Source of the DNA: a virus
DNA: 20,884 bases
Reading direction: 5' to 3' (one strand)
IMG/VR virus record: IMGVR_UViG_3300032820_000151
Span: 1-20,884 of that record
Part shown: positions 88 to 19,642 of the stretch, piece after piece
Position numbering within the stretch: position 1 is the first letter of the stretch
How the letters are laid out: every line of letters begins with the position of its first letter
Program-made: the position numbers and the translations under genes
The notes under the pieces: model-generated
Database searches by the model: none
Seen by the model: the letters and a program-made list of their open reading frames with translations, nothing else
Told to the model about the DNA's origin: nothing

Positions 88-777
88 ATGGCAGCAGGTC
101 CAATAGCAAGAACAACTACTAAAGTAGTTAAGGCAGCTAAACGAGGTCGTCCTAAAGGATCAAAAAAAGGTCGTAAGGCTATTCCAGAAGCTATTAAGAA
201 AAAAGCTAAAGATGCTGGTTTTACATCTGTAAAAAAATGGAAGGAAGCTGGTTCACCTGAACCTAAGAAGGAAAAAGCTAAGAAGAAAAAAGATAGTGAA
301 CCTAAAATAACTGGTAAACGAAAAAGAGAAATAGACGCACTGATCAGAGCGCAGAGGGCTGATGATATGGAAGTAGCAGGTAGCCCAAGACGTAGAATGG
401 TTTCGGGTGTAGCTGAAGGTCCAAATAGTCCTGCCCTTTCAAAAGTTATTCCTCCAAAAATGTCTGCCGCACAAAGAAGAGATAGAATTAAACGAGGTCT
501 TGTTGGAGGTCCAAGACCGGCAAGACCGGGACGTAAGGGAGAACAGGTTAGAGATATTGGTGAATATGCTCCTCCTCGACAACAAATTGCAGAGGAGATG
601 GGCTTAACAAATAGAGGACAGTCTGGACTTGGAGAGGGGTTACCTTCTTTAGAAGAGCTTGCAGGTATGGGTTTTCAAATTGCTAAAAAAGGCGGTCAAG
701 TTAAGAAAAAATCAAAGAAAAGTTCTAAGAAGTACAAAGGGTGGGGAGCCGCTAGAAAACCAAAAAGGAGTAAATAG
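88..777 (+). CDS. Lys/Arg-rich phage protein with AT-hook-like motif
   Basis: A 229-residue, strongly basic protein. Residues 19-23 read R-G-R-P-K within KRGRPKGSKKGRK, the core of an AT-hook, a motif known to bind the minor groove of AT-rich DNA. The first ~75 residues are a lysine-rich, histone H1-like tail and the middle (about 85-195) is low in hydrophobic residues and probably disordered. The C-terminus is again Lys-rich, after a GGQV motif at residues 202-205. The start is supported by AAGGAG at 75-80, seven bases before the ATG. Its first residues (M-x-x-G-P-I-x-R) match those of the next gene, so the two may be related or share a tag. A DNA-associated or internal head protein is a reasonable inference from composition and position. 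I do not recognise a named family. Confidence 0.8.
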   Translation: MAAGPIARTTTKVVKAAKRGRPKGSKKGRKAIPEAIKKKAKDAGFTSVKKWKEAGSPEPKKEKAKKKKDSEPKITGKRKREIDALIRAQRADDMEVAGSPRRRMVSGVAEGPNSPALSKVIPPKMSAAQRRDRIKRGLVGGPRPARPGRKGEQVRDIGEYAPPRQQIAEEMGLTNRGQSGLGEGLPSLEELAGMGFQIAKKGGQVKKKSKKSSKKYKGWGAARKPKRSK

Positions 778-779
778 TT

Positions 780-1298
780 ATGGTATTAGGACCAATAGTA
801 AGAAGTGGTAGACGGATACTAGGTGAAGCTGCAAAGAAACGTAAAGGTGTTACGGCAGATATAGCAAGAAAAGAAAAGAAACTTACTGCTACGGAAAACA
901 AACTTAAAGATGCAAAAAAGACATTACAAACTAAAAGACAAGCCGCTAAAAATCTTGAGAAGAGTACTAATACAAAGAAAAGAGTTAAGGCTGGTCAAGA
1001 AGTAGTTCAGATTAAAGATCAAATTAAAACACTAGAAGAAGAAATAAAAGGTTTAGTTTCTGCTATTAAAGGAAATGTAAAAAGAACTTATGGAACTAAA
1101 AAAACTCCTGATTGGCAACGAACTGCAAAACCTGGAGAAGTTTCAGATACTGCTGGAATGACTAAACGTAATACTACTGGTCAACGAGAACATGTAGGTC
1201 CAAGAAAAAAAGGTGGTCAAGTAACTTATCGTGCTGGTGGTGGTTTAGTATCTAAAAAGAAAACCATGTATGGTTATAAAGAAGGTGGGCAAGTTTAA
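780..1298 (+). CDS. basic coiled-coil phage protein ending in GGQV
   Basis: A 172-residue basic protein. Residues about 24-98 are rich in Lys, Glu, Ala and Leu with a heptad-like pattern, so a long helix or coiled coil is likely. The C-terminal third is a glycine/lysine linker with three copies of one motif: GGQV at 145-148, GGLV at 154-157 and GGQV as the last four residues. The N-terminus (MVLGPIVR) resembles that of the preceding gene (MAAGPIAR). AAGGAG at 765-770 gives a nine-base spacing to the ATG, which lies two bases after the upstream stop. Function unknown; a minor virion or DNA-condensing protein is possible. Confidence 0.78.
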   Translation: MVLGPIVRSGRRILGEAAKKRKGVTADIARKEKKLTATENKLKDAKKTLQTKRQAAKNLEKSTNTKKRVKAGQEVVQIKDQIKTLEEEIKGLVSAIKGNVKRTYGTKKTPDWQRTAKPGEVSDTAGMTKRNTTGQREHVGPRKKGGQVTYRAGGGLVSKKKTMYGYKEGGQV

Positions 1299-1301
1299 TT
1301 A

Positions 1302-1607
1302 ATGGCTACTCAAAAGCCAAAACGTAAAGGTACTATGAAAGGTCATACCATTAAGGGAGGTCATAAGCGACCAACTAAAAAGGGTGCAGGTATGACAGCT
1401 AAAGGAGTACGGAAGTATAGAAAGGATAACCCCGGTAGTAAACTTAAAACTGCTGTGACAAAAAAGAATGTTAAGAAGGGTAGCAAGGCAGCAAAAAGAC
1501 GTAAATCATTTTGCGCTAGATCGGCAGGACAAATGAAAAAGTTTCCTAAAGCTGCCAAGAACCCTAACTCAAGATTACGTCAAGCAAGAAAAAGATGGAG
1601 ATGTTAG
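1302..1607 (+). CDS. small very basic conserved phage protein with SFCAR motif
   Basis: A 101-residue protein in which about one third of residues are Lys or Arg. Visible signatures are AKGVRKYRKDNPGSKLKTAV in the middle, RRKSFCAR at about residues 66-73 (Cys71) and a terminal RKRWRC (Cys101). I recognise the combination 'AKG...YR...GS.LK..V...RR+SF.AR...(R/K)W.C' as a widespread but uncharacterised family of small phage proteins, recalled from memory and not searched. It begins three bases after the previous stop, with the weak ribosome site AAGGTGGG (1282-1289) inside the upstream gene. The charge suggests contact with packaged DNA, but no function is known to me. A minus-strand frame across it is a shadow. 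Confidence 0.8.
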   Translation: MATQKPKRKGTMKGHTIKGGHKRPTKKGAGMTAKGVRKYRKDNPGSKLKTAVTKKNVKKGSKAAKRRKSFCARSAGQMKKFPKAAKNPNSRLRQARKRWRC

Positions 1608-1610
1608 GGA

Positions 1611-2285
1611 ATGGCTGTAAGTAGTACATTTAATTTTAATCTAGATATAGATGATGTTATCCAAGAGGCTACCGAGATGATCGGTGGTGAACAAACTCTT
1701 GGATATGAACCGGCATCTGCAAGACGTTCTTTAAACCTAATGCTTAAAGATTGGCAGAATAGGGGCATACTTCTATGGAGTACGGAGGCATCTGTTATTA
1801 CGGTAACAGCTAGTGTATCTTCATATGCATTAAGTAATTCAACGATTGATGCTTTACAAGTTATTGTTAATAGAAGTAATACCGATTTACCTTTAACTAG
1901 AATTTCATATGAAGAATATCTTCAAATACCTAATAAAGGTCAGACAGGTAGAGCTACACAATATACTGTAAAAAGAGATAGGGATAACCCTACAATTTTT
2001 GTTTGGCCTATTCCTGAAAATTCTACGGATAAATTAAAAGTAGAAAAGATTAGTGAACTTACAGATATTAATAAATCTGCTACACAAAATGCGGATGTTC
2101 CTAAAAGATTTCTTCCTTGCCTTTCGGCTGGTTTAGCTTTTTATATGTCATTAAAAAGAGCAAATGTTCCGCCACAGAAGGTAACATTTCTAAAACAAAA
2201 TTATGAAGAATTACTTAATAGAGCTTTAATGGAAGATGCAGAAAAAGCTAGTATGTATATTCGTCCAAGAATAAATAGAGCGTAA
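1611..2285 (+). CDS. P22 gp4-like tail accessory factor / head-tail adaptor
   Basis: A 224-residue protein. The N-terminal part, with DDVIQEATEMIGGEQTLGYE followed by a helix containing S-L-N-L-M-L-K-D-W-Q, fits the P22 gp4-type tail accessory family, in which two early helices with an 'LN.ML..W' core pack against the portal. The middle is beta-rich and the last 60 residues are helical (a YEELLNRALMEDAEKA segment). In P22 this protein binds under the portal ring, closes the filled head and receives the tail; gp4 itself is 166 residues, so this is a longer relative. GGAG at 1597-1600 lies in the end of the preceding gene. Position after head-side genes and before the fibre fits the role. The family call is from pattern memory. 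Confidence 0.72.
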   Translation: MAVSSTFNFNLDIDDVIQEATEMIGGEQTLGYEPASARRSLNLMLKDWQNRGILLWSTEASVITVTASVSSYALSNSTIDALQVIVNRSNTDLPLTRISYEEYLQIPNKGQTGRATQYTVKRDRDNPTIFVWPIPENSTDKLKVEKISELTDINKSATQNADVPKRFLPCLSAGLAFYMSLKRANVPPQKVTFLKQNYEELLNRALMEDAEKASMYIRPRINRA

Positions 2286-2286
2286 G

Positions 2287-2565
2287 ATGGCAAGCAATAA
2301 ACAGGCTTTAGCTATATGTGATACTTGCGGATTTAGATATCCTCACAGGATAATGAAGTTAAATAGTTATGGCTTGTTAGTATGTCCTGAAGATTATGAA
2401 GGTGCTTATGATTTAAAAAATAATCCACAAAATAAAGCACCAGATGTTAAGGATGACGAAGCTATAAGAAATGCTCGTCCTCCTGCTAATGACGAAAGAA
2501 ATCTTTTATGGGAAAATGCAACATCCATCTGGAATGAAACAACTCAAGAATGGAATAAAATTTAA
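2287..2565 (+). CDS. small zinc-ribbon-like phage protein
   Basis: A 92-residue protein. Cys11-x2-Cys14-Gly-Phe and Cys33-Pro-Glu-Asp36 form a C-x2-C ... C-x2-D pattern, suggesting a minimal zinc or rubredoxin-like knuckle. The following stretch (residues 37-92) is polar and probably extended, ending in an aromatic segment W-N-E-T-T-Q-E-W. Similar small proteins with 'C.(R/T).GF.YP ... GL.V' are common next to gp4-like adaptors in phage genomes, as I recall it. One base separates it from the previous stop, and its own TAA overlaps the fibre ATG (TAATG), so fibre translation is probably coupled to it. Role in the virion is unknown. Confidence 0.7.
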   Translation: MASNKQALAICDTCGFRYPHRIMKLNSYGLLVCPEDYEGAYDLKNNPQNKAPDVKDDEAIRNARPPANDERNLLWENATSIWNETTQEWNKI

Positions 2566-5500
2566 TGGCTACATTAACTGGAAAACAAATAGCGAATACT
2601 TATAAAGAACTTTTACAAGTTAGTAATTCAGGTTCTAATGATGGTATTGATGGTACAGTCAGAGCCGTATCAGATGGTGAGGGTACTGAATCTGCATTGC
2701 AAATTAGTAATGCTGCTGTTAACATTAATGGTACTTTTCAATTAAATGGAGATTCCATTACTAAAAGTGCCGCTCAGATAAATAACATTGCTGATCTTAC
2801 GGGAAAATCAGGACTGCTTGCAGGTGATGGTTCAAGTGTCTTTGGAAGAACATTAGTTGCGGGAGCAAATGTTACAATTGGTAATGCAGATGGACAATCG
2901 GGCAATCCAACAATTGCTGTTAGTTTAGGTGGAACTGAGATCACAGTTTCAGCCCTTAATGCGGTTGAGGGAACTTTTAGTGGTAATGTAACTGCTGCTC
3001 GTTTTGTTGGGCCGATAACTGGAGATGTAACGGGAGATGTAACAGGCACAGCAATTAATGCTGTAACAGGAGATTTTTCCACAAAGGTTAGCAGTGTTAA
3101 AGTAAATGGAACAAATGCAACATTTTCTAATATTGTATCTGCAACAACTTTTGACGGTAACTTAATTGGAAATGTTACTGGTAATGTTACTGGTGATCTT
3201 ACTGGTGATGTTGATGGTGTTAACGGTGATTTTAGTACGCAACTAAGTGCTACTACTGTTATAGGTAATATTGGTCAGTTTAATGCTAAAGTATCTTCTG
3301 CATTAGTTAATGCTACATATATTAGTGCAACAGATTTTTTTGCAGGAACACTAACTTTTACAAGTGTTTCTGTATCTGCATATACGACTAACACTCTTAC
3401 AGTGTTAGCAGCGACATCATTAGATGGTACTCTTGATGTTGGCGATAATGCTACATTTGATTCTGATGTAACTTTTACAGGTGCTTCTTACAATGCAGTT
3501 TGGGATAATTCTGATAATGCTCTAGAATTTGCTAATAACGCAAAAGCAACATTTGGTACTAATGCTGATTTTGAAATTTACCATGACGGGAGTAATACAC
3601 GATTACATGATACTGGTACAGGCAACTTACTTATTCAAAGTAATGGAAGTGGTGTTTACATCCAAAAAGATGCCTCCGAAAATTTAGCAACATTCTTGAC
3701 GGATGGTGTTGCAACTCTTTACCATGACAATAGTGCAAAACTTGCAACTAAATCTGATGGTGTAGATATTACAGGCGAACTTCAAGCAGATAGTTTGGAT
3801 ATTGATGGTAATTCACAATTAGATGGGACATTAACTGTCGGCGTAGACGATACTGGCTACGACGTTAAATTCTTTGGTGCTACGTCTGGCAAATACATGC
3901 TATGGGACGAAAGTGCTGATTCTCTTATTTTAGTTGGTGATGTAGGAATTGGTCTTACCTCCCCACAAACTCTAGTTCATATTCACGATTCTGGAACTGG
4001 AGGTTCTGATTTATTAAGACTAACTACAGGCGACACTGGCTCCGGTAGTAGTGATGGATTTAAAGTCCATTACGAAAGTGATCTTGATATATGTTACATG
4101 AATCTAGAGCAAGGCGACCATAAATGGTACACGCATAACGGAAGTTCAGTTTCTGATAGAATGACACTTTCGGATGCTGGCAATTTAAGTCTTACCGGCG
4201 ATTTCTCTCTGAAGCACGACGGTGCTGTCCTTTATTTCGGCGCTGATAGTGAAATTAATTTAGAGCATGTTGCGGATCACGGTCTAAAGACTAACGGTCA
4301 TCTTAATATCCTTGATGACAAACGTATCTATGTAGGAACTGGTAACGACTTACAACTTTACCACGAAGCTTCTTCAAACAATAGTTACATCGTGGAAAGC
4401 GGTGCAGGCAGCTTGGTCATCAAAGCCACCCATCTGTATCTAAATGACGCTGCTGATGGTGCAATGGCATCTTTTCTGTTGGACGGTGCTGCCACACTCT
4501 TTTATGACACCGCTGCGAAAATTGCGACCACTTCCACTGGTGTTAGTATTACTGGCAATGTTGTAGCTACAGGTGAACTTCAATCAGATAGCCTTGATAT
4601 TGATGGTAATTCACAATTAGATGGTACGTTAACTGTTGGTGTAGACGATACTGGTTATGATGTTAAGTTTTTTGGAGATACCGCTAGTGCATACATGCTC
4701 TGGGATGCCTCTACGGATGATTTGATCTTAGGTGGAGCATCTACATTAGGGGTTGGTACAACAGTCCCAGACGGCAAAGTACATATCCACAGTGCGTCTG
4801 CTGGGTCTGTCACAGCCAATGCAAACGCAGATGAATTAATTATAGAAAATAGTGGATTTGCAGGTCTTTCTATTCTCACTCCGAATGATCAACTGGCAAG
4901 CATCGTTTTTGGTGATCCTGATGATAACGATGTAGCCGGAATCAATTACGACCATAGTGGTAACTCCATGCGGTTTGTGGTCAATGGCGGCGAACATGTC
5001 CGCATTGATAGTAATGGGAATATGATTATCGGCGGGACTACAGCGGTGACAGGAGCGGCGTTAACTGTTGAAGGTCCAGATTCAGCAGCCGGTTCTCTTA
5101 ACTATGTCGCAGCTATCCGTAATAGTGATGCCTACAGCACTACGCCAGCATCCGGTATTATTTTTCAAAATAAATATAATAGTGGTGGTGCTTATGCTGA
5201 TGCTGGTGGTATTGAAGTTGTAAAAGAAAATGCAACTGACGGTGAATATGGATTTGGGTTAGGACTACATACTAGAGCTAATGGCTCCGCTATTACTGAA
5301 AAGCTTCACATTACAGGTGAAGGCTTAGTAATGATCGGTGGTTCTGCTTCCTCGTATGACACAACTCCCTCTCAAGCCGGTCTGTCATTGTATTACGAGA
5401 CAGATACAGGTGCTGCAACAATAGGAACCTATTCTAGTGGTGGAACTACACGACTAGCCTTTTCTACCAACTCTGGGGCAGGCGAAGCTAACGCAGAAAG

Positions 5501-7094
5501 GCTTCGCATCGAAGGTGCTGGGTCTGTTTGGACTCCTACAGTAAGTGGAGCAAACAACAATCTGCGTCTAGGTTATCTTGCTGGTGAAGACATTGAATCT
5601 GGCTCAAATTATAACACTCTTATTGGCGATAGCGCAGGAAAAGAAATTACTACCGGCGATGGCAACACTACTGTCGGATACCAAGCTGGAGATGCGCTGA
5701 CTACGGGCGGGTACAATACCGCAATAGGCCATAATGCTATGTCAGCTAATCAGACGGGCGCTTCCGCTGTTGCTATTGGCAATCAGGCTTTGGCAACGAC
5801 TACGATTGGAAGCATTACCGCTGTCGGTGATGGAGCAGGACAATATCACCAAGACGGAGTTAATCTTACTGCAATAGGATTTAGAGCACTTCAAAACAGC
5901 ACTACCGGAGCAGGCAATACGGCGGTTGGCTCTGCTGCTATGGACGCAACTAATACCGGCGGCTACAATACAGCGGTGGGTACTAATGCGCTAGGAGCGA
6001 ACACTACAGGGTCTTTAAATGTAGCTGTCGGCAATGACTGTCTCTTACTGTCAACAGAATCAAGTTCTAACACGGCTGTAGGAGACGCTGCTTCTAGATC
6101 AAATACCACTGGCACTACAAACGTCGCAATCGGGAAAAGCGCTCTATATGCTAATCAGACAGGAAATTTTAACACAGTTGTGGGTGCTTACGCATTAGAC
6201 GCTGCGAATCCTAGTAGTACGACTACTACTATGATGAATGTGGCGATAGGAGCATATTCAGGTAGTGCCTTAACCACTGGTTACGATAATACATTCGTGG
6301 GTGCAGAATCCGCTCAAGCCGGTACTATAACTGGGTACTATAACACCTGCGTGGGGAAAACTGCTGGATACTATTTGAGTACTGGAAACAACAATACAGT
6401 CATGGGGAAACTTGCTGGGTACACTAATGCAACTGGGTCCAGCAATACATATATAGGGTCCAGTTGTGCGTTTACGGCAGAGGCTGGCGGCAACAATGTG
6501 GCTATCGGACAATCTGCTGCATATTATATGACTACCGGTCACAACAATGTGATCATAGGAAATAGTGCAGGGGTTGGAAATGCCTCGCAGCAGATAACCA
6601 CCGCTGGGCATTGTATTATAATTGGCGACACCGCTTATGCAGGTAGCCAGACAGGCGATTACCAAATGGTTATAGGAACTAGCGGAACAGTTGGTAAAGG
6701 TGCTTCTACTGTTTTTATAAATGCTAATGGTGGTGCAGCGTATCAAGGTGACAATAGCTCCAGTTGGACTACGACTTCCGATAGGCGGATTAAAAAGAAT
6801 ATTTCCGACAACGATGTTGGTTTGGATGCAATCAACCAAATACGAATCCGAAATTTTGAATATCGTAAGCCAGAAGAAATTACTGACCTACCTTCACATC
6901 TCGCTGTTAATAAAGAAGGTGTTCAACTAGGTGTTGTCGCTCAAGAGATTCGAGAAGTGCTTCCTAATGTCGTAAAAGAAGAAGAAACCGGATTCCTATC
7001 AGTTTCAAACGATGACATTACTTGGCACTTGGTCAATGCTGTTAAAGAGTTAAGTGCAAAAGTTAAAGAGCTAGAGGAGAAGTTAAATGGCTGA
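2565..7094 (+). CDS. large tail fibre with C-terminal S74 intramolecular chaperone
   Basis: A 1509-residue modular fibre. Residues 1-80 (GKQIANTYKELLQVSN, GIDGTVRAVSDGEGTESALQ) look like the virion-anchoring head common in aquatic-phage fibres. Residues ~140-225 are short G-N/D-V-T-G-D repeats. Two copies of a ~130-residue beta module follow: an 'IYHDGSN..L.DTG.GNLLI' part, then '..GVATLYHDNSAKLATKS.GV' and 'QLDGTLTVGVDDTGYDVKFF'. Residues ~997-1378 are a YadA-head-like array (N-T-A-V/I-G-x-x-A-L). Residues 1405-1509 are a Peptidase S74 domain: Ser1405 and Lys1410 in TSDRRIKKNI are the expected catalytic pair, followed by LGVVAQEIREVLPNVV and a terminal coiled coil. S74 domains guide trimerisation and then cleave themselves off just before the serine. 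Middle parts are richer in G+C than the start, suggesting module exchange. Confidence 0.9.
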   Translation: MATLTGKQIANTYKELLQVSNSGSNDGIDGTVRAVSDGEGTESALQISNAAVNINGTFQLNGDSITKSAAQINNIADLTGKSGLLAGDGSSVFGRTLVAGANVTIGNADGQSGNPTIAVSLGGTEITVSALNAVEGTFSGNVTAARFVGPITGDVTGDVTGTAINAVTGDFSTKVSSVKVNGTNATFSNIVSATTFDGNLIGNVTGNVTGDLTGDVDGVNGDFSTQLSATTVIGNIGQFNAKVSSALVNATYISATDFFAGTLTFTSVSVSAYTTNTLTVLAATSLDGTLDVGDNATFDSDVTFTGASYNAVWDNSDNALEFANNAKATFGTNADFEIYHDGSNTRLHDTGTGNLLIQSNGSGVYIQKDASENLATFLTDGVATLYHDNSAKLATKSDGVDITGELQADSLDIDGNSQLDGTLTVGVDDTGYDVKFFGATSGKYMLWDESADSLILVGDVGIGLTSPQTLVHIHDSGTGGSDLLRLTTGDTGSGSSDGFKVHYESDLDICYMNLEQGDHKWYTHNGSSVSDRMTLSDAGNLSLTGDFSLKHDGAVLYFGADSEINLEHVADHGLKTNGHLNILDDKRIYVGTGNDLQLYHEASSNNSYIVESGAGSLVIKATHLYLNDAADGAMASFLLDGAATLFYDTAAKIATTSTGVSITGNVVATGELQSDSLDIDGNSQLDGTLTVGVDDTGYDVKFFGDTASAYMLWDASTDDLILGGASTLGVGTTVPDGKVHIHSASAGSVTANANADELIIENSGFAGLSILTPNDQLASIVFGDPDDNDVAGINYDHSGNSMRFVVNGGEHVRIDSNGNMIIGGTTAVTGAALTVEGPDSAAGSLNYVAAIRNSDAYSTTPASGIIFQNKYNSGGAYADAGGIEVVKENATDGEYGFGLGLHTRANGSAITEKLHITGEGLVMIGGSASSYDTTPSQAGLSLYYETDTGAATIGTYSSGGTTRLAFSTNSGAGEANAERLRIEGAGSVWTPTVSGANNNLRLGYLAGEDIESGSNYNTLIGDSAGKEITTGDGNTTVGYQAGDALTTGGYNTAIGHNAMSANQTGASAVAIGNQALATTTIGSITAVGDGAGQYHQDGVNLTAIGFRALQNSTTGAGNTAVGSAAMDATNTGGYNTAVGTNALGANTTGSLNVAVGNDCLLLSTESSSNTAVGDAASRSNTTGTTNVAIGKSALYANQTGNFNTVVGAYALDAANPSSTTTTMMNVAIGAYSGSALTTGYDNTFVGAESAQAGTITGYYNTCVGKTAGYYLSTGNNNTVMGKLAGYTNATGSSNTYIGSSCAFTAEAGGNNVAIGQSAAYYMTTGHNNVIIGNSAGVGNASQQITTAGHCIIIGDTAYAGSQTGDYQMVIGTSGTVGKGASTVFINANGGAAYQGDNSSSWTTTSDRRIKKNISDNDVGLDAINQIRIRNFEYRKPEEITDLPSHLAVNKEGVQLGVVAQEIREVLPNVVKEEETGFLSVSNDDITWHLVNAVKELSAKVKELEEKLNG
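3771..3938 (+). repeat. fibre internal repeat, copy 1
   Basis: This stretch encodes E-L-Q-A-D-S-L-D-I-D-G-N-S-Q-L-D-G and the following T-L-T-V-G-V-D-D-T-G-Y-D-V-K-F-F, then Y-M-L-W-D. A second copy starts 798 bases (266 codons) downstream. Bases 3798-3826 are identical to 4596-4624, and most other differences are at third codon positions. The protein similarity extends upstream of the DNA repeat, through the '..GVATLYHDNSAKLATKS' part. Confidence 0.9.
4569..4736 (+). repeat. fibre internal repeat, copy 2
   Basis: Second copy of the 3771-3938 unit, in the same reading frame. It encodes ELQSDSLDIDGNSQLDG, then the TVGVDDTGYDVKFF part and Y-M-L-W-D. Synonymous differences outnumber amino-acid changes in the core, so the copies have been kept by selection or recombination on the fibre shaft. 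Confidence 0.9.
5550..6705 (+). repeat. YadA-head-like repeat array in the fibre
   Basis: Around 15 degenerate units of roughly 20-30 residues with the pattern N-T-A-V/I-G-x-x-A-(L/G)-x-x-x-T-T-G. Examples are NTTVGYQAGDALTTGGY, NTAVGSAAMDATNTGGY and NNVIIGNSAGVGN. The pattern is that of the left-handed parallel beta-roll of trimeric YadA-type heads, also used in phage fibres. The array lies directly before the S74 domain, so it is probably the distal receptor-facing shaft. Long open minus-strand frames here are a by-product of the repeats. Confidence 0.85.
6777..7091 (+). other. Peptidase S74 (intramolecular chaperone) domain of the fibre
   Basis: Codes for residues 1405-1509. Ser1405 is the predicted cleavage serine (cut before it) and Lys1410 the predicted general base, in S-D-R-R-I-K-K-N-I. 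The conserved core LGVVAQEIREVLPNVV follows, and the end (ELSAKVKELEEKLNG) is a coiled coil that would hold three chains together. The mature fibre should therefore lack about 105 C-terminal residues. The order of elements matches known S74 domains. Confidence 0.88.
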
Positions 7095-7374
7095 TGATCC
7101 GAACCATATCATTATTCCTCCAACTGAAGAACAAATTGCTGTGTTTTTTCACAGTATGGACGTTTCAGCTAACCGTATAAATAATTGCGTAGCAGACGAT
7201 GCAGAGTTTCTTCTTGAAAACCACAATGATGCGGCAGAAACAAAAAATGATATGCAAAGAAATGTAGATCATATGGAAAATCTGATGTCTACAGATTGGT
7301 ACAAAGATTCAAGTAAAGATAAATCTTTGTATGTCTCAGCCGTTGCTGCTGGTAAAAACTATATTGCCTCATAG
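7087..7374 (+). CDS. small acidic phage protein, unknown function
   Basis: A 95-residue protein that overlaps the fibre stop by eight bases, with GAGGAG just upstream (about 7075-7080) inside the fibre gene. After an extended N-terminus (HIIIPPTEEQ) it is helical and acidic/polar, with segments such as DDAEFLLENHNDAAETKNDM and DHMENLMSTDWY, and it ends with Y-V-S-A-V-A-A-G-K-N-Y-I. No signal peptide, membrane segment or catalytic motif is visible. The position right after a fibre gene is where fibre-assembly chaperones often sit, so that is one possibility, but nothing in the sequence proves it. Confidence 0.72.
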   Translation: MADDPNHIIIPPTEEQIAVFFHSMDVSANRINNCVADDAEFLLENHNDAAETKNDMQRNVDHMENLMSTDWYKDSSKDKSLYVSAVAAGKNYIAS

Positions 7375-7390
7375 GGAAAGGAACTGAATT

Positions 7391-7765: not shown

Positions 7766-7771
7766 TAAAAT

Positions 7772-7779
7772 AAAAGGAG
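7772..7779 (+). promoter_or_regulatory. strong ribosome binding site
   Basis: AAAAGGAG, nine bases before the ATG at 7789, in one of the few real intergenic gaps (23 bases). It is among the strongest in the window, consistent with the 7789 gene being the first gene of a transcript from the promoter-like site just upstream. Confidence 0.6.
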
Positions 7780-7788
7780 AAATAAATA

Positions 7789-8046
7789 ATGACTCAAGAA
7801 GAAAATAATAATAATATCATTAATATTAATGGGACTGATTATTCTCAAGATGATCTTAGTCAAGAGCAGAAATACATGATTGCTCAAGTCAGGGATTTGC
7901 AAATGAAAGCAGCCCAGACCAAGTTTCAGCTTGATCAAATCCAAGTATCGCTAGATCATTTTACTAATAAGGTAATTGAAAGTATTGAAGATAAGGAGCA
8001 AGATTCTTCTCCTGCTGAGATTGTTCAGAAACAATTGGTGAATTAA
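7789..8046 (+). CDS. small coiled-coil phage protein
   Basis: An 85-residue protein. The opening I-I-N-I-N-G-T-D-Y-S-Q-D-D-L-S followed by one long helix (about residues 27-65, QKYMIAQVRDLQMKAAQTKF and on) fits the small phage family with 'I.INGKEY..DDLS.E......I..(L).....L..' (DUF6447-like, recalled and not searched). These are short coiled-coil proteins of unknown role, often beside the small protein type seen at 7391-7765. The run of Asn after the start comes from an A+T-rich tract and is probably disordered. Confidence 0.75.
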   Translation: MTQEENNNNIININGTDYSQDDLSQEQKYMIAQVRDLQMKAAQTKFQLDQIQVSLDHFTNKVIESIEDKEQDSSPAEIVQKQLVN

Positions 8047-10931: not shown

Positions 10932-12779
10932 ATGTCCACAGAATCTAGACTTATTAAGTTAAACTTTAAGCCCGGTATTAACCGAGAATCTACAGAGTAT
11001 GCTGAAGAAGGTTCTTGGTATAATGGTGATAAAGTTAGGTTTAGGCAGGGTCGTCCTGAAAATTTAAGAGGATACTCTAAAAGAGTATCTACTGCTTTTG
11101 ATGGGACGGCTGTAGATTTAATTGCATGGACTAATAATGAAACTTATAAGTTTGCTGCTTGGGGTACAGATAAAAAATTATACGAATATAATAGTAATAT
11201 TGTTGCTGATATTACACCAATTAAATCTAAAGCATTTAATACTTCAGCCGTTGTAACGGTTGATGGAACTAATAATGGTTTTTATACAGTTAATACCGAA
11301 ACAACCATTATTACTTCTATCTCAGCACATGGTGCAGAAACTGGAGACTTTGTAACCTTTACCTCTTCTACAACAGCAATTGGAGGTAATCAAGATTTAA
11401 CCGGGAAAACTTTTCCTGTATCTGTTATTAATGTAAATAGATTTCATTTCCAAGTTACTGTAGCTTGTAATGCTACTCAAAATAAAGTAGGTACAGCAAC
11501 ATGTAAATATCTTTTACCAACCAGTTCAGATGTTAATATGCCGGGTCTTGGTTATGGTGCGTCAACCTACAATGCTGGTGCAGAAACACCGGGAGAGCGT
11601 GGATGGAATGAACCAACCGATAGTTCAACCATTGTTAATAGAGCTACCCAATGGTCTTTAGATAATTATGGTGAAGATTTAGTTGCCTGTCGAAGAGGTG
11701 GTCGTATTTATTATTGGAATAATACAGTTCAAGATGATGCTCCAAGGGCAGGATTTGTTACTGCTTCTCCGACAGTTAATAATTATATCTTAGTGTCACC
11801 TAATGATAGACATTTAATAGCTTTTGGGTCTACTGAATTTGGAACAGGTAACTATAATCCAATGTTAGTTCGTTGGTCTGATCAAAATAATTATAATAAC
11901 TTCACACCTTCTATTGCTACAACATCTGGTGAAAATATTTTAACAGATGGTACTGAAATTAGAGGTGCTATACGAGCTAGAAATGCTATTAATATTTGGA
12001 CAGATAATGCTTTATGGCTTATGACTTTTGTTGGTCCTCCGTTTGTTTTTAAATTTCAACAACAGGGAAGTAACTGTGGTTTAATAGGTAATCATGCAGC
12101 AGTTGCTTTTAATAGCATGTCTTTCTGGATGGGTGATGATAACTTCTATGTATTTGATGGAACGGTTAAAGTTATAGACTGCACTGTAAGACGTTATGTT
12201 TTTGATGACTTTAATATAGAAGAAGGCGGTAAAGTATACGCAGCTACCAATTCAGAATTTAATGAAATTATTTGGTTATACCCTTCTGCAAACTCTACAC
12301 ATTGTGATAAATATGTTATTTTTAATCCAATTGAAAGAACATGGACTATTGGTAATAATGATTGGACAACTTTTGCAGATAAAGAAGTTTTTGGAAATAC
12401 TTTAACAACAAGTAATACATCATTTTTATATGATAACGAACCTCCTGATTTATATACAGCCGATGGTGAAGCCCAAGTTTCATTTATAGAATCAGCACCA
12501 TTTGATATTGAGGATGGTAATGATATGTTATTTGTTGATAGGTTGATACCTGACTTTACTTTGGTTGGAGGAAACTTAGGATTCACAGTTAAAGCTCAAA
12601 ATTTTCCTGTAAATGATGTTGTAACAAAAGGACCATTTACAATCACACCGACTACAAAGAAGGTTGATTTAAGGGCAAGAGGAAGGCAAGCACTCGTTAG
12701 GGTATCTTCTGGTGAACAGGGAACTGAGTGGCGGTATGGCTCTTTGAGGCTTTCTTTACAAGAGGACGGACGTAGATAA
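10932..12779 (+). CDS. P22 gp10-like packaged-DNA stabilisation protein (tail hub)
   Basis: A 615-residue protein. Its start LIKLNFKPGINRESTEYAEE, then G-S-W-Y-N-G-D-K-V-R-F-R-Q-G-R-P-E-N-L-R-G-Y, is the signature opening of the P22 gp10 (Phage_stabilise) family. Many aromatic, beta-propeller-like repeats follow (NIWTDNALWLMTFVG, SMSFWMGDDNFYVFDGT, ERTWTIGNNDWTTF), which fits the family. The end is a basic 'RARGRQALVRVSSGEQGTEW' beta segment. P22 gp10 (472 residues) forms the hexameric hub that attaches under gp4 and helps retain packaged DNA; this one is longer. It begins right after the previous stop, with weak AAGG upstream, and its stop overlaps the next ATG (TAATG). Confidence 0.78.
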   Translation: MSTESRLIKLNFKPGINRESTEYAEEGSWYNGDKVRFRQGRPENLRGYSKRVSTAFDGTAVDLIAWTNNETYKFAAWGTDKKLYEYNSNIVADITPIKSKAFNTSAVVTVDGTNNGFYTVNTETTIITSISAHGAETGDFVTFTSSTTAIGGNQDLTGKTFPVSVINVNRFHFQVTVACNATQNKVGTATCKYLLPTSSDVNMPGLGYGASTYNAGAETPGERGWNEPTDSSTIVNRATQWSLDNYGEDLVACRRGGRIYYWNNTVQDDAPRAGFVTASPTVNNYILVSPNDRHLIAFGSTEFGTGNYNPMLVRWSDQNNYNNFTPSIATTSGENILTDGTEIRGAIRARNAINIWTDNALWLMTFVGPPFVFKFQQQGSNCGLIGNHAAVAFNSMSFWMGDDNFYVFDGTVKVIDCTVRRYVFDDFNIEEGGKVYAATNSEFNEIIWLYPSANSTHCDKYVIFNPIERTWTIGNNDWTTFADKEVFGNTLTTSNTSFLYDNEPPDLYTADGEAQVSFIESAPFDIEDGNDMLFVDRLIPDFTLVGGNLGFTVKAQNFPVNDVVTKGPFTITPTTKKVDLRARGRQALVRVSSGEQGTEWRYGSLRLSLQEDGRR

Positions 12780-13060
12780 TGGCTAGATATCCTGAATTAT
12801 CTTCGTTCGTCCAACTTGATTCAGAAGAATTAAAAAATGTTTATGAGATGTTTCAACAGTGGGTATCTGAATTAATTTTAGAATTAGATACAAGAGATAT
12901 ACAGGTAGATGCCACACCATCTACAAATATTTATAGTGTTGTAACAATAACAGATATAGGTAGACCTAACGCAGGAGATGTAGCTTATGTAGCTAGTACA
13001 GGAAAGTTTAAAGGTTATGTTAGTGTGGGTGGTACAACAGCTTGGCAAGATTTAAATTAG
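12779..13060 (+). CDS. small phage protein after the gp10-like gene
   Basis: A 93-residue protein. The N-terminal half is a helix (SEELKNVYEMFQQWVSELIL, then ELDTRDIQ). The C-terminal half is a small beta unit with G-R-P-N-A-G-D-V-A-Y-V-A-S-T-G-K-F-K-G-Y and a final T-A-W-Q-D-L-N, a layout seen in many small phage tail proteins. It starts at the TAATG overlap with the gp10-like gene, so the two are coupled. In P22 the tail needle gp26 follows gp10, but gp26 is 233 residues and a long coiled coil, so this is at best a positional counterpart. Confidence 0.72.
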   Translation: MARYPELSSFVQLDSEELKNVYEMFQQWVSELILELDTRDIQVDATPSTNIYSVVTITDIGRPNAGDVAYVASTGKFKGYVSVGGTTAWQDLN

Positions 13061-13069
13061 GATAAAGGT

Positions 13070-15103
13070 ATGAGAAACACAAAGAATACATTTGATCTAT
13101 CTTTAGATATCCCTCTTTACGGAAATATTAATAAATTAAATTTCTGTAATGAATATGAATTAAACCATTATTGTTTCGCAGAAGGTGACGCTGACGCTGA
13201 AGAAGGTGATCTAGGTGCAGAGTTTGCTGCTGAAGCTGAATTTGGTGATTTTGGTGGCGTTCTTGCCGGTGATCCCGGTAATCCCGGTGATCCCGCTGAA
13301 TTTAGTGGATTTAGTGGCGGCTACTATGGCGGTTATGATTCAGGTGATGAAGGAGGTGGTTGGGGACCAGACGACTCTTTTGTGGGACCGCCGGGTACTA
13401 TGGATGATGCTGCATTGGCGAATGCGACAATGGCGGCAGTTCTAGGCGATCCTGAATTTGATGACGAGGATGATTTGGGAACTACGAATGCTGCGACCGC
13501 TGCCGCTATAGCCGCAATGGATGCAGAGGCGCAAGCCTATAACAGAGGAGTAGCGCAGGAAATGGGATACACTGGCCCATTTCCAGATATGGGACAGTTT
13601 GTTCCAGCCTTGACTCCAGGAGTGGATACGGTTTTGGTAAATGTTACTCCACCGGGTGACCAATTTGGCTATCATGGTCCTGGTGAATATGCTATTTTAC
13701 CGGCTGATATAGCAGCATATCAAGGCAATTTTGCTAATATGCCCGCTATGGAAACATTAGCAATGCATATGGCTATTCCTGAACCCGGCAAGACCCCATT
13801 TGATAATACTTATCAAGCCGCCTACAATAGAGCTACAGAAGCATATGATCCCGGTGCCACCGCTAGAGGAGCCGAGTTCATGGGATTCGAGATTGGTCCT
13901 AGAGGATGGGCTGCTGATCAGGCCGGTACACCGGCTGGTTTTGATCCCGGTGGATTCTTTACGGGGTTGGCAGGACTTCTTACTGGCAGTCCTTTTGTTG
14001 CACCAGCACTGGATACTCTGTTAGGTAGAGGAGGTACAAACTGGGCCGGATGGGGTAATTTAGCAGAAACCTTGACAGGTTGGGATGCTAACCAAACCTT
14101 TGCAAATTTATCAGATGCTGGGCAAACTGCTGTGGACGCTGCATTGGAAGCGCTTGGATATGAGCCTGATGAGGTGCCCCCAGCAGTAGCTCAAGCTATA
14201 GCTAATTCCTTGGCGGCGACGACAATTAGCCATGTAGGCAAAGGACCAGAAGGGAGTTTTGAAGGGTTCAAAGAGGGCGGCTTAATTAGTTTAGCAGAAG
14301 GTGGTGTTCCTGATGATAACAGAATAAGCTACGTCAGACAGAATATTGATACTTCTGCTGGTCGTCCTGCTGACAATTGGTTTGATAGATTAGATAAAAA
14401 TACACAAGATTATTTAAAAGGTGCAAAAGGTTATGATGAGTGGGCTACGGTTCATGGTCTTGAAACTTTAGATATGGATTGGGATGATTTTATTGAAGGA
14501 GGTGCGGCTGCTCTTGATCCGATGGATTGGGGTGAATATGGATTATCGGACCAAAACCCTGCAAGTGACCCATTGACAGGTCTTGTATATGGTAGAGGTA
14601 ATGTAGGAGATATTAGAAAGTATAATATAATAGATCAACTTGTTTCAGATGTTGGAGTAGCTAGACCTGATATGACTTGGGATCAGTGGGGCGATCTCGA
14701 CAGCGGTTTACAGGGTATTGGTAAACCTTCGATAGAATATAGAAAGTGGCTCCGAAATAAAACGGGTTTCCCTGCTGGGCTTGAAGAATCGGATTTTAGG
14801 GAAGAAATGTCACCTATACCGTCTAGAAATATTAACTATAGAGTAGGATCAGTTAATGAACAATATAATGCTCAAGAGGGTGGAGGTATTAGAGACTTAA
14901 TTGAAAGTCAAATGACTTTAGTTGATGTACTCAATACTGGACAAGCTATACCGCCTAATATGGGAACACAACAAACCCAAGGTAGCATGAATGTTGCTCA
15001 ACCTACAGCACCTAATCAACAGAATGTTTATACTCAAAGTACACAACCACAATCTTTTTATGCTCAACCACAACAGGTAAAGAATTATGGCAATTTATAT
15101 TGA
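13070..15103 (+). CDS. large acidic virion protein candidate
   Basis: A 677-residue protein of unknown family. Residues ~38-115 are rich in Asp, Glu, Gly and Phe with a short G-D-P-G-N-P-G-D-P stretch, so mostly disordered and strongly acidic. Residues 115-150 are Ala-rich. Residue 403-412 is GGLISLAEGG, repeated almost exactly in the next gene. The last 50 residues are Gln/Asn/Thr/Pro-rich (QPTAPNQQNVYTQSTQPQ). No signal peptide or catalytic motif is visible. G+C is higher in the first ~1.1 kb than in flanking genes. The end overlaps the next gene by 17 bases. By position (after gp10-like) it is a candidate internal or ejection protein. Confidence 0.75.
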   Translation: MRNTKNTFDLSLDIPLYGNINKLNFCNEYELNHYCFAEGDADAEEGDLGAEFAAEAEFGDFGGVLAGDPGNPGDPAEFSGFSGGYYGGYDSGDEGGGWGPDDSFVGPPGTMDDAALANATMAAVLGDPEFDDEDDLGTTNAATAAAIAAMDAEAQAYNRGVAQEMGYTGPFPDMGQFVPALTPGVDTVLVNVTPPGDQFGYHGPGEYAILPADIAAYQGNFANMPAMETLAMHMAIPEPGKTPFDNTYQAAYNRATEAYDPGATARGAEFMGFEIGPRGWAADQAGTPAGFDPGGFFTGLAGLLTGSPFVAPALDTLLGRGGTNWAGWGNLAETLTGWDANQTFANLSDAGQTAVDAALEALGYEPDEVPPAVAQAIANSLAATTISHVGKGPEGSFEGFKEGGLISLAEGGVPDDNRISYVRQNIDTSAGRPADNWFDRLDKNTQDYLKGAKGYDEWATVHGLETLDMDWDDFIEGGAAALDPMDWGEYGLSDQNPASDPLTGLVYGRGNVGDIRKYNIIDQLVSDVGVARPDMTWDQWGDLDSGLQGIGKPSIEYRKWLRNKTGFPAGLEESDFREEMSPIPSRNINYRVGSVNEQYNAQEGGGIRDLIESQMTLVDVLNTGQAIPPNMGTQQTQGSMNVAQPTAPNQQNVYTQSTQPQSFYAQPQQVKNYGNLY

Positions 15104-16673
15104 TAGACAAAAACCAAATAGCGGATTAGCTAGTTTCCTTGCTGCTAGAGGTAGACATGGGGATACTGAACTTGTTCATATGACAAAGCCTGAAGTTAAG
15201 CGGCTAATGAATACTGGTCTAATGACGCTTAACCCAAGGACAGGTCTTCCTGAAATGTTTCTTGGAGACGTATTTAAGGGTATAAAAACATATGTAAAGA
15301 ATTTAATTAAACCTAAAAACTTAATTCCTACTCTTGCAGGAATGGTAGGTGGAGCGTACTTGGGACCATTGATAGGAGGTGCCGCACCATTTTTAAGTCG
15401 TGCAGGAGCGGCAGCTATTGGTAAGGGTTTGGGAGTTGCGGCAGGAAGCCTCCCTTTTCGTGACTTAGGAGAGTCTGCCCAAGCTGGTACTACTGCTGCT
15501 TTTATGGATTATGGAACATCAGTTATGGGGGATATGCTGCGACCCGGCCCGGATGCATATGGTCTTCCCAGAAGCAGTGATGCATATGATAGATATGTTG
15601 GTGATGCTTTAATGGAAAGGCAGAAAGTAGGAGAATTAGATAATCAATTTGCTTCAATGGATATGGAGTCGGGTGGTGTTGGTGGTGATAGTTATGGTAT
15701 TTTAGATACAGCTCCTGTATATCAATATGCTGATCTTTCAGATGTTAATACAAAAATAGCTGGACTTCCACCGAAACCATCTCCTGCATTTACTAAATGG
15801 AGTAATAATTTAACAGGTAGAGAGTTAGGTCAAAAGTTTAGGATGGCTCCCGAAGCAGTTCAAAATAGATTGGTAGGTAGGCAGCAAGCGGACCCAAGAC
15901 AACTTAGAGCGTTTATAGAAGGTAAACAACCAGAGTATGCTGGTCCTCTTGAATTTGGTAGTCTGGGTCCAGATGAGGCAGCTAGAAAAGCTCTTGCTCG
16001 TCAGTGGGCTATGAAGAATAACGCAATATTAACGGAAAAAATGAGGCGGCAAGTAAATGATCCTTGGGCTGGTGTTAAAGAACAAGTTTCAGGTGCTGAT
16101 GGTTTAAGTTCTATTAATATTAAAGAATTAGGAAGTGCTATACCACTGGGTGAGGTACTATCTGATGTTGCTACAACTCAAGAAGCTCTTGGAATAACGG
16201 ATATGTTATCAGCACAAGCAGAAGCTGAAGAAGAAGCAAAGAAAGAGTTAGAAAAGATGGGAAGCAGAACTTACACACATACAAGACCCGGTGGAGTTCG
16301 TTATGTTGTGCCTCAAGGTAAAAACTTGTTACCACCAATTAAGTTTAGAAGGGCTGAACAGGGTGGTCTTATATCTTTAGCTCATGGTGGTGATATGAGA
16401 AGAGATTTTGAAGGATTGGTACAAGGTCGTGGACATGGTATGCAAGATAATGTTATTATGGATATAAAACAAAAGGGTGGTCTACTGGCAGTATCTCCTA
16501 AAGAATATGTTGTACCTGCTGATGTTATGTCGGGTTTAGGTAATGGTAATCCTGATGCGGGTGCGGAATATATGGACGAATTTATTAGTGACTTCCGAAA
16601 AAAGAAATATGGTAGAGACAAGCAGCCTCCTGAAATGGATGGTAGGTCTGCATTACAATCTTTAATGGCTTAG
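15087..16673 (+). CDS. virion protein candidate with GGL and EYVVPADV motifs
   Basis: A 528-residue protein. Residues ~60-115 are Gly/Ala/hydrophobic (NLIPTLAGMVGGAYLGPLIG) and could insert in or cross a membrane. The middle is polar and helical. GGLISLAHGG is at 426-435. The C-terminal block G447-R-G-H-G-M-Q-D, then K-G-G-L-L-A-V-S-P-K and E473-Y-V-V-P-A-D-V, continuing S-G-L-G-N-G-N-P-D-A-G-A, is one I recognise as recurrent in phage virion-associated proteins. Its biochemical meaning is not settled. The start lies 17 bases inside the previous gene, with AGGT just upstream, so translation is coupled. A tail-tube or ejection-type protein is a reasonable inference. Confidence 0.72.
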   Translation: MAIYIDRQKPNSGLASFLAARGRHGDTELVHMTKPEVKRLMNTGLMTLNPRTGLPEMFLGDVFKGIKTYVKNLIKPKNLIPTLAGMVGGAYLGPLIGGAAPFLSRAGAAAIGKGLGVAAGSLPFRDLGESAQAGTTAAFMDYGTSVMGDMLRPGPDAYGLPRSSDAYDRYVGDALMERQKVGELDNQFASMDMESGGVGGDSYGILDTAPVYQYADLSDVNTKIAGLPPKPSPAFTKWSNNLTGRELGQKFRMAPEAVQNRLVGRQQADPRQLRAFIEGKQPEYAGPLEFGSLGPDEAARKALARQWAMKNNAILTEKMRRQVNDPWAGVKEQVSGADGLSSINIKELGSAIPLGEVLSDVATTQEALGITDMLSAQAEAEEEAKKELEKMGSRTYTHTRPGGVRYVVPQGKNLLPPIKFRRAEQGGLISLAHGGDMRRDFEGLVQGRGHGMQDNVIMDIKQKGGLLAVSPKEYVVPADVMSGLGNGNPDAGAEYMDEFISDFRKKKYGRDKQPPEMDGRSALQSLMA

Positions 16674-16684
16674 TGGAGTAAGAT

Positions 16685-19642
16685 ATGGCTGGATTTTATA
16701 ATGCGTTTGGTGGTAGCACTGGATATACGGGCAAAGCACCAGCATCAGTAGTTGGTACAACGATGACCAATGAAGGGTTTCAACTTCAACAACCCTTCCT
16801 TGAGGATTTGTTTGGTACTGCTGGAGAAACATTTTTTGAGACTAGTGTTGATGATGCTGGTGTTGAAACTAAAACTTTAAGAATACCAGAACAATACGCT
16901 GGCGAAACTATTGCTGGATTTACTCCTGAACAGGAAACCGCATTTAATATGTTAACTGGCATTGGTGCTGGTGGTCTTGCTGCAACCGGTCAGGCTGGGT
17001 CTGGTCAATATATGACTAAGGCTAGAGAGTTTGCAGACTTAGTTGGGCAGGAGTTTGACTCTGCTACCGCTGAAAAATATATGAATCCATATCTAGAAAA
17101 TGTTACTAGACAGGCTGAAGACGAAGCTCTTAGAAGATACCGTACAGAGATTGAACCTAAGTTAGGTGCTGAAGCTGCCGCTGCTGGAGCATTCGGTGGA
17201 TCAAGGGCGGCTCTCCTAGAATCAGAAGGGCAACGTAATCTTCTAAGACAGATGGGAGATATTAGAGAAAGAGGTTTGGCTGCTGGTTTTGATCAGGGTC
17301 GTAGAGCCTTTGAGGCACAGAAAGCTAGGGAGCAGGGTCTTGCTGGTTTCTATGGTCAGTTGGCTGAATCTGCACCTAGAATTGGTGCTATGGAAGCTGG
17401 TCTTGTATCTTCTGTTGGTGAACAAAGGAGAGGGATAGAACAAGCTAGATTAGATAGGGCTGAAAAAGAATTTATTGAGCAACGAGATGCGCCCATGAGG
17501 CAGTTGGCTCAATATCAAAGTATCCTGCAAGGGTTCCCATACTCACCATCTACCTATGAAGTTAAATCAACTTATCAACCACAACCTTCTTTTGGGCAAC
17601 AGCTTATTGGTGGATTAGGTACTGCTGGAAGTCTATATGGTGCCTTCGGTGGATTTAATCCAGCAGGTAGAAGAAGGTATGGTGGTCTAGTTAGTAGACG
17701 TTCTGGTGGTCAGGTACAAGGTGGTCTGGCTGGCTTAGAGCGTCATGCCGATATTAATTATACTCGTCAATATGGTTCCCCAAGAGGTAGTTCTAGCTCT
17801 CGTACAGGAACTCCTTTGGGTACAGGTTATAATTTGAGTGATCAAATAATAGAATTAATAGGTGGTATGGGTGGTCCTCGTAAAGGAGATTATAAAGATT
17901 TTATAAGGGAACATATTTTCGGCTTCCGACCTGATGTTCGTAGAGCGGAGCTTGGTTATAGAATACCAGATTATGTAGATACTTTATCTATGGACGAAGA
18001 TATACTCGGATTTATAGAACAATTAAATGCACCGTCAGGAGACGTTAGATTTGGTAAAGAATTGGGGATCAGTACACCAGTATTCCCTCCTAAACCTAAA
18101 CCTGAAAAACCTTCTGCTCAATCTAGATCATCTGAGAGAAGCAGAAATTTCCAAAAGAGGATGGATTTGGTGAAGAAAGCGGAGGCGGCGGGAATGCTCA
18201 CACCATATCCTAGATTTGGAGGAGAGGATGAGGCTGCTAAAAAATATTTAGGACAGGTAGCTGAAGCTAAAGCTCGTCAACGAAGCACAAATTTACGAAA
18301 TAATATGAAGTTGGTGAAGGAAGCAGAGGCGGCAGGAATGCTCACACCATATCCTAGATTTGAAGGAGAGGATGAGGCTGCTAAAAAATATTTAGGACAG
18401 GTAGCTGAAGCTAAAGCTCGTCAACAACGACAAGTAGCTGAAGCTAATGCTCGTTTAGATAATCCCGCAAACTATAGTGATATGAAGGATGCAGAAGGAG
18501 ATTTGGGATTAGACCTATCAACTATTAGAGAAAGGGCGCAGCAGAATGCGGCGGAAAGAGTTCAAAGAGGAGAGAACAATAATGTAGCACAAGGTAATGA
18601 TGGTGCTAATTGGTTTGATGCGGCGACGGCTGGGGCGACTAAAGCATGGGATAAGGTTGGCGAGGCTGTCGCCGGTGCGGTCGATAGTTTTAAGGAGTCT
18701 CAACTAGAACGAAGGAAAGACAGGATAGCAAACGACGAGGTTAAGGCTATATTAGAAAAGGGTGAATTGGAAGCTAACGCTGGAGATGATCCCGGTTCTG
18801 CGTCGGCGGTGGAAAGTCCTCCAAAAGCTGTAACTGGCACCGGTACACCGGCTGGGGCATCTCCAAAAAGAAATTCGGGTTCTGGTCCCGGTGGATACAC
18901 TGATTTAGGCAGAGCAATAGGAGTAGTTCCGCTTGCTCCAAAGGGAAAAGGTGGAAGTTCTGTTGATCCTATGGATAAATATTTTAAAGAATATATGGAT
19001 GCAATATCAGATCAACCTACTGGTGAACAAGAATTAACAGAAGCAGATAAAAGATTACAAAAAGATATGTGGTTATCACTTGCTGCTGCCTTTAGTAGGT
19101 TTGGATCAACTGGACATGCCGGTGGAATAGTGCCTGCATTCTTAAAAGAAGTACCTCAGACAATAGCAGATGTTAAAAAGGCCCAGAAAGCCTATAGAGA
19201 AGATCAGAAATATGCAAACAAGCAGAATGCATTGTTGGCGAAAGATAAACTAACTGCTGATTTAGCTAGGCAAAATATATTCCTGAAACGTATGGGAGTT
19301 GAAGCTGATTTGATATCAGCAAATGCAGCACTGGTGAAAGCTGGGATGATGGATCGGATGGATTATCAAGACTTTACAAGAATGCTAGTTCAGTTTACAG
19401 ATACATCTAATCTAGCACAACTGGACGTTCAAAAAGTACTAGCTGAAGCTATGCGGCGAGTACAAGAAAACCCCAGAGACTTGTCTAAAGTTTTAACTGA
19501 GACTCTACAGTGGGCAAGAGATGGTGGTAATGATGGAGAGATTGAATTGAAAACAGGTAGTTTGCCCCCTGCTTCGAAAAACAACGGACGAGAAACGGCA
19601 ATGACACTTACAGACGCTGCTGTGGAAAAACTGAGGAAGTAG
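16685..19642 (+). CDS. large internal/ejection protein candidate with tandem repeat
   Basis: A 985-residue protein. Residues ~80-290 are helical, with the recurrent phage signature Y132-M-N-P-Y-L-E-N-V-T-R-Q-A and, later, A-A-A-A-G-A-F170-G-G-S-R174 and QYQSILQGFPY, found in many large phage virion proteins of unknown role. Residues 333-350 carry GGLVSRRSGGQVQGG. Residues ~495-580 contain a 48-residue tandem repeat (MLTPYPRF.GEDEAAKKYLG). Residues ~640-790 are polar and likely disordered, with a basic G-P-G-G linker. The C-terminus (~790-985) is helical. GGAG at 16674-16677 gives a good ribosome site, and the gene starts 11 bases after the previous stop. Confidence 0.75.
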   Translation: MAGFYNAFGGSTGYTGKAPASVVGTTMTNEGFQLQQPFLEDLFGTAGETFFETSVDDAGVETKTLRIPEQYAGETIAGFTPEQETAFNMLTGIGAGGLAATGQAGSGQYMTKAREFADLVGQEFDSATAEKYMNPYLENVTRQAEDEALRRYRTEIEPKLGAEAAAAGAFGGSRAALLESEGQRNLLRQMGDIRERGLAAGFDQGRRAFEAQKAREQGLAGFYGQLAESAPRIGAMEAGLVSSVGEQRRGIEQARLDRAEKEFIEQRDAPMRQLAQYQSILQGFPYSPSTYEVKSTYQPQPSFGQQLIGGLGTAGSLYGAFGGFNPAGRRRYGGLVSRRSGGQVQGGLAGLERHADINYTRQYGSPRGSSSSRTGTPLGTGYNLSDQIIELIGGMGGPRKGDYKDFIREHIFGFRPDVRRAELGYRIPDYVDTLSMDEDILGFIEQLNAPSGDVRFGKELGISTPVFPPKPKPEKPSAQSRSSERSRNFQKRMDLVKKAEAAGMLTPYPRFGGEDEAAKKYLGQVAEAKARQRSTNLRNNMKLVKEAEAAGMLTPYPRFEGEDEAAKKYLGQVAEAKARQQRQVAEANARLDNPANYSDMKDAEGDLGLDLSTIRERAQQNAAERVQRGENNNVAQGNDGANWFDAATAGATKAWDKVGEAVAGAVDSFKESQLERRKDRIANDEVKAILEKGELEANAGDDPGSASAVESPPKAVTGTGTPAGASPKRNSGSGPGGYTDLGRAIGVVPLAPKGKGGSSVDPMDKYFKEYMDAISDQPTGEQELTEADKRLQKDMWLSLAAAFSRFGSTGHAGGIVPAFLKEVPQTIADVKKAQKAYREDQKYANKQNALLAKDKLTADLARQNIFLKRMGVEADLISANAALVKAGMMDRMDYQDFTRMLVQFTDTSNLAQLDVQKVLAEAMRRVQENPRDLSKVLTETLQWARDGGNDGEIELKTGSLPPASKNNGRETAMTLTDAAVEKLRK
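18167..18281 (+). repeat. tandem repeat unit 1 within the 16685-19642 gene
   Basis: Encodes L-V-K-K-A-E-A-A-G, then MLTPYPRFGGEDEAAKKYLG and Q-V-A-E-A-K-A-R-Q. Nearly identical to 18311-18425, giving a period of 144 bases (48 codons). The unit is polar and helix-forming apart from a conserved M-L-T-P-Y-P-R-F turn. Confidence 0.93.
18311..18425 (+). repeat. tandem repeat unit 2 within the 16685-19642 gene
   Basis: Second copy of the 18167-18281 unit, differing at only a few bases (for example AAGAAAGC versus AAGGAAGC). A further partial copy of its end (Q-V-A-E-A-N-A-R, 18431-18454) follows at once, so at least one slippage or unequal exchange has occurred here. Confidence 0.93.

Follow-up and report, generated by a model that had tools for sequence, protein, structure and literature searches.

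A recurrent Gly-Gly-x-(Val/Ile) motif on unrelated late proteins of marine phages as a candidate docking tag

Results

The window, which is the whole 20,884-base stretch of IMG/VR phage record IMGVR_UViG_3300032820_000151, was analysed through 19 of its proteins. Its late genes run from basic proteins through an SU10-type adaptor, a fibre and a stabilisation-type protein to three large late proteins. The genes relevant here and the positions of the motif are as follows.

88..777, + strand: Lys/Arg-rich protein of 229 aa (P1) with KKGGQVKKK at 685-711; GGQV at 691-702 (residue 202), then the tail ..GWGAARKPKRSK
780..1298, + strand: Lys/Arg-rich protein of 172 aa; GGQV at 1212-1223 (residue 145), GGLV at 1239-1250 (residue 154), terminal GGQV at 1284-1295 (residue 169)
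1302..1607, + strand: motif-free basic neighbour with the short C-terminal module DUF6321 (Pfam PF19846)
1611..2285, + strand: SU10-type portal adaptor (PF24175), motif-free
13070..15103, + strand: P7, late protein; GGLISLAEGG at 14276-14305 (GGLI at residue 403)
15087..16673, + strand: P8; GGLISLAHGG at 16362-16391 (GGLI at residue 426)
16685..19642, + strand: P9, DNA-ejection-protein family; GGLV at 17681-17692 (residue 333), GGQV at 17705-17716 (residue 341)

All motif copies which a preliminary description had listed for five proteins of the window were found in place. GG[QL][VI] was observed eight times compared to 0.93 expected from shuffles of 40-residue blocks, a number reached by 0 of 2,000 shuffles, and it occurred in five of the 19 proteins (0.84 expected, P 0.0005), while the reversed motif was present twice. 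The same description considered the motif absent from fibre and tail-hub genes. This holds for the Q/L form in the protein encoded at 10932-12779, but the wider GGx[VI] is present there as GGRI and GGKV. Two forms have to be separated: basic proteins carry [K/R]xGGx[VI], and acidic ejection proteins carry GG[LI][VI]xLAxGG. A nearly identical 10-mer is common to P7 and P8, and the form found in P9 (GGLVSRRSGGQVQGG) is intermediate. A literature search revealed no paper on the motif, which is weak evidence for novelty.

As GG[QL][VI] was defined after the data had been seen, enrichment was tested on relatives, which provided an independent test. Their loci were gathered via the adaptor and the stabilisation-type protein, neither of which selects for the motif, and 12 longer relatives were added later. 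In a first set of 380 nonredundant proteins, GGx[VI] occurred 116 times in Lys/Arg-rich proteins versus 11.6 times after shuffling (10-fold); non-basic proteins of this set showed no enrichment (109 versus 108) and the reversed motif matched expectation. The second set comprised 1,334 nonredundant proteins of related marine phage contigs, evaluated by local shuffling. It omits loci fetched via the GGLISLA pattern and includes loci fetched via YGYK and RAI-tail patterns, so that for the basic form the first set is the one free of this bias. Here, GGx[VI] following a charged or polar residue ([polar]xGGx[VI]) was found 186 times versus 13.4 in basic proteins (14-fold; reversed 9) and 39 times versus 11.9 in ejection proteins, which represent three homologous families only (3.3-fold; reversed 10). 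The 1,110 other proteins of this set showed no enrichment (109 versus 98). The longer pattern GGx[VIL]xLx(x)GG occurred 17 times versus 0.3 in ejection proteins (reversed 0) and 0 times in basic proteins. GG[LIVM][IV][SGNAR] was enriched in both classes (23 versus 3.3 and 20 versus 2.1) and fell below expectation elsewhere (15 versus 23). These counts, which repeat the excess of the window directionally in relatives, show that the recurrence of GGx[VI] is far above chance, directional and limited to these protein classes.

In the basic proteins, the motif copies are mostly located at most about 30 residues from the C-terminus, often paired nine residues apart, with K or R usual at -2 or -3 of GG. 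They lead into one of a small number of tails (GYKxGGQV and GGQVMSGSDLVSSLYD, both terminal, GGPVRQRYAMA.. or GGPIGVGAARTGFG..). The tail-bearing proteins are encoded between the adaptor gene and the major capsid gene, which in the relative G003 matches PF25209 (Phage_capsid_4). The C-terminal tag of the 780-1298 protein, MYGYKEGGQV, belongs to a terminal YGYKxGGxV ending that recurs on many dissimilar proteins: a scan of IMG/VR yielded 63 stretches, many of which encode small basic proteins that end in this way and are otherwise dissimilar. Cultured phages with the 780-1298 protein were looked for and none was found, and the cultured adaptor relatives HTVC023P, CRP-901 and DSL-LC04 have few tags or none. 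When the tails (last 45 residues) were stripped, 82 tagged proteins fell into 37 clusters without mutual BLAST similarity, which is weak evidence because the basic cores are of low complexity. One core family of 18 members carries at least three tail types (a, c, d/e), and this tail exchange on one core family is direct evidence for modularity. Two different genes of L016 have the common terminal ending GGGMIGNKGVMYGYKSGGQV. DUF6321 of the motif-free neighbour is likewise a short C-terminal module on families of very different length. Its matches are to the C-terminal ends of PHROG families that span 99 to 928 positions, and it is thus a mobile C-terminal module as well, but it differs in sequence (FCARS..RxRWxC) and has no GG motif.

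Comparison of the 780-1298 protein with its homologues revealed 87% identity in the motif region and 60% in the remainder for L107, and 90% and 87%, respectively, for L105. For P7, P8 and P9, motif identity exceeded that of the remainder in five of five comparisons, and the kept residues show synonymous changes. The motif of P1 is not better conserved than the remainder of the protein; KKGGQ[VI] is kept in the homologues of L105 and L107. The motif was retained at homologous sites in relatives; P7 keeps GGLISLAxGG in L002, L075, G003 and G007 and has lost it in G004 and G005. The first glycine of the motif is encoded by GGT in 73-81% of cases and by GGA in only 14-16% (background 31%). This codon use is the reverse of that expected for a GGAGG site and contradicts a ribosome-binding-site origin, and a Shine-Dalgarno origin of the terminal GG was rejected.

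Residues 67-326 of P9 match phrog_4287 (DNA ejection protein, E 4e-13). The motif and a long variable extension lie outside the matched domain, and the motif sits where the conserved helical N-terminal domain gives way to the extension. About 16 long homologues have it at this boundary too, some of them in intermediate forms (GGLVSRRSGGQVQGG, GGQVVPRQSGGQIRGG, GGKVKGKKR). Short distant homologues (about 290 aa) end at this boundary and have neither motif nor extension. These relatives were recovered by a profile search of the fetched loci; a peptide scan of IMG/VR found none. The P8 motif lies in a stretch that is predicted to be disordered. Immediately after it comes a conserved C-terminal module (about 16404-16670) with the pattern GxGxGMxDNV..SxxEYVVPADVMxxLGNG, in the window ..GHGMQDNVIMDI..SPKEYVVPADVM..LGNG, which contains GGLL at 16476-16487. 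The module is kept as far as cyanophage Pag-Yong1 and gave no convincing match in Pfam or PHROG. An N-terminal module, GDTxLxHxxxxExxxLxxxGxGTxNPxTGLPE, is common to residues 1-60 of P8 and several P9 homologues (L230, L225).

AlphaFold models of low confidence (pTM 0.30 for P9; 0.25 for P8, too weak for a fold search) place the motif regions of P8 and P9 in disordered segments (pLDDT about 31-38), a supporting rather than strong indication since the underlying alignments are shallow. The motifs of ejection proteins (GG[LI][VI]xLAxGG; GGx[VI]xGGL) are predicted to lie in flexible linkers at module boundaries. A fold search with the P9 model gave no PDB match with E <= 0.001. In a viral library its matches were for the most part uncharacterised phage proteins; internal virion proteins and DNA transfer proteins appeared among the weak matches only. 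Sequence searches for solved structures of P8, P9, the capsid protein and the adaptor gave no useful match; hits of the adaptor to coronavirus spike chains (E 0.03-0.05) were treated as chance.

A related tail, GG[MIR][VI]xR[DN]P[YN]..RAI (GG[MI][VI]xR[DN]PY..RAI in its narrower form), terminates several enzymes. Its carriers are proteins with a tail-lysozyme domain (PF18013), a phage-lysozyme domain (PF00959; L241 scores just below the curated cut-off, L079 above it) or a GNAT acetyltransferase domain; one further carrier shows an HExxH-like stretch, recognised by eye, and has no convincing Pfam match. Five RAI-tail loci were fetched by the tail pattern, whereas G009, G010 and further examples were obtained independently of it. 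Several of these genes are located between terminase and portal, and in G008, G009, L242 and L244 they adjoin the portal gene directly upstream. The portal proteins there begin with MA[TIV]ERNP[FYN] (L242:2589-5159, L244:152-2593, G008:13638-16196, G009:29468-32080) and thus have R[DN]P[YF] in common with the tails of the neighbouring enzymes. Within 330,352 aa, [EMQ]R[DN]P[YFN] occurred 17 times, six at portal N-termini, ten in RAI tails and one elsewhere. Relatives with a different portal N-terminus (G012, HTVC023P, DSL-LC04) have tails without RNPY. The match between portal N-terminus and tails tracks phylogeny and is a lead, not proof.

Pelagiphage HTVC203P encodes a homologue of one tail-bearing enzyme within its group of internal virion protein genes, and a further homologue carries the annotation 'internal virion protein'. 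Two tail-bearing lysozyme-type genes (L079 12884-13549, with PF00959, and G010 43944-44555) each come after a small holin-like gene. Their products may be ordinary endolysins, which weakens the reading of the tail as a pure capsid address. The L240 and L241 tails are almost identical in DNA. In phage DSL-LC04, a PcfJ-like protein encoded between terminase and portal (L202:8495-10972) carries GGx[VI] three times close to its N-terminus. In L035, a LysM-domain protein (PF01476; L035:6157-6780) has a C-terminal GGGKI tail. A gene annotated as GroES-like co-chaperonin lies near the portal gene of cultured relatives (L199:9631-10071, L202:14271-14723, L201:14633-15013), and similar ORFs are found near portal in G003, G006 and G010.

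Discussion

The proposal that one short linear signal is reused on unrelated proteins gained support from directional enrichment, conserved position in homologues, predicted disorder and the exchange of tails among cores, and it is plausible that the basic form and the ejection-protein form are one signal. From these sequence data, the recurring GGx[VI] is probably an address tag which docks proteins into the assembling particle. More specifically, GGx[VI] could be what a group of related short linear tags has at its core, the tags serving as docking or virion-incorporation peptide for a common particle partner, a reading that we put forward tentatively and at somewhat less than an even chance. 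The partner, which might be the inner face of the capsid protein, the scaffold (for which a phrog_28737 gene is a candidate) or the portal, would bind the tag, and tagged proteins would thereby be incorporated or correctly placed. The two glycines would form a turn, and Val/Ile together with flanking residues would provide the contact. The tag would head the interchangeable C-terminal tails of basic proteins and the RAI tail of enzymes encoded between terminase and portal, and would occupy linkers in the ejection proteins. That tagged proteins enter the head is suggested by the position of their genes, by the ejection proteins as hosts of the motif and by homologues of one tailed enzyme among internal virion proteins.

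Possible but doubtful is an explanation by at least two unrelated motifs, one a basic tail with KxGGx[VI] at the C-terminus and the other a GGLISLAxGG turn element of the ejection module GxGxGMxDNV..SxxEYVVPADV, which would look alike because both start with Gly-Gly and an aliphatic residue. The flanks indeed differ (basic versus LAxGG), GGx[VIL]xLx(x)GG is confined to ejection proteins in this comparison (17 versus 0 in basic proteins) and the P8 copy abuts a conserved folded module; the intermediate forms in P9 homologues and the enrichment of GG[LIVM][IV][SGNAR] in both classes, but below expectation elsewhere, argue for a connection. RGG-like nucleic-acid-binding elements of basic, DNA-associated head proteins would agree with the high Lys/Arg content and with K/R near the GG. 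The RGG box is defined by Arg-Gly-Gly repeats in a basic context, however, and the copies of P7 and P8 are non-basic, the invariant features are direction and V/I at +3 rather than charge, and the enzyme tails end in PY..RAI, which leaves this interpretation a slim chance.

A neutral by-product, arising from a short end segment that is prone to recombination and was copied from one late gene to another, or from a sequence kept as the ribosome binding site of the next gene, seems quite unlikely to us. Tight gene packing and the nearly identical DNA of the L240 and L241 tails would fit such an origin, but the preference for GGT over GGA at Gly1, the many identical residues specified by different codons and the conserved position of internal copies far from gene ends do not. 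Processing of ejection proteins is known from other phages, and the P9 copy lies at a module boundary, as a cleavage site might. The preliminary description had considered cleavage by a prohead protease and co-occurrence with such an enzyme. Neither gained support: S78 (PF04586), ClpP (PF00574), S49 (PF01343) and Mu-like (PF10123) proteases gave 0 matches in 13 records, the window record, itself a fragment, and 12 relatives, in a search that had no positive control for PF10123 and did not include the T4 gp21 family. Cleavage also makes little sense where the motif itself constitutes the last four residues, as in several copies at the extreme C-terminus, and copy number varies between proteins. 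A prohead-protease or other processing site is accordingly very improbable. With cleavage lacking a recognisable protease of the families searched and a ribosome-binding-site origin contradicted, a linear docking element remains.

Such a docking element would have parallels in known systems. Short capsid targeting sequences bring unrelated proteins into the head, as described for T4 internal proteins and phage P1 DarB; they are N-terminal, and in T4 the prohead protease cleaves them (PMC9024508). The motif described here is similarly a short peptide common to otherwise unrelated proteins of one phage group. Its copies are C-terminal or internal, in contrast to the T4 and P1 sequences, targeting is a candidate function and the searched protease families were not found. 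Encapsulin targeting peptides with the consensus GSLxIGSLK are located at cargo C-termini (PMC10960027). The likeness consists in short C-terminal peptides of Gly and aliphatic residues on unrelated enzymes (lysozyme families and GNAT sharing one tail) and in an HK97-type shell protein in the system. The motifs here differ in being GGx[VI]-based, and the shell is a phage capsid, to whose inner face the tails might bind. That GGLISLA resembles GSLxIGSL is no more than a lead, and we do not claim membership in either group. An address code in the encapsulin manner, in which interchangeable C-terminal tails, some with R[DN]P[YF] of the portal N-terminus, would load enzymes and basic proteins at the site of the procapsid where the portal is placed, appears unlikely at present.

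Should the tag prove to be a docking peptide, tailed phages, whose known cargo-loading signals are mainly N-terminal, would have a C-terminal one as well. It would also provide a sequence rule for predicting which of the unknown proteins encoded by abundant uncultured marine phages travel in the particle.
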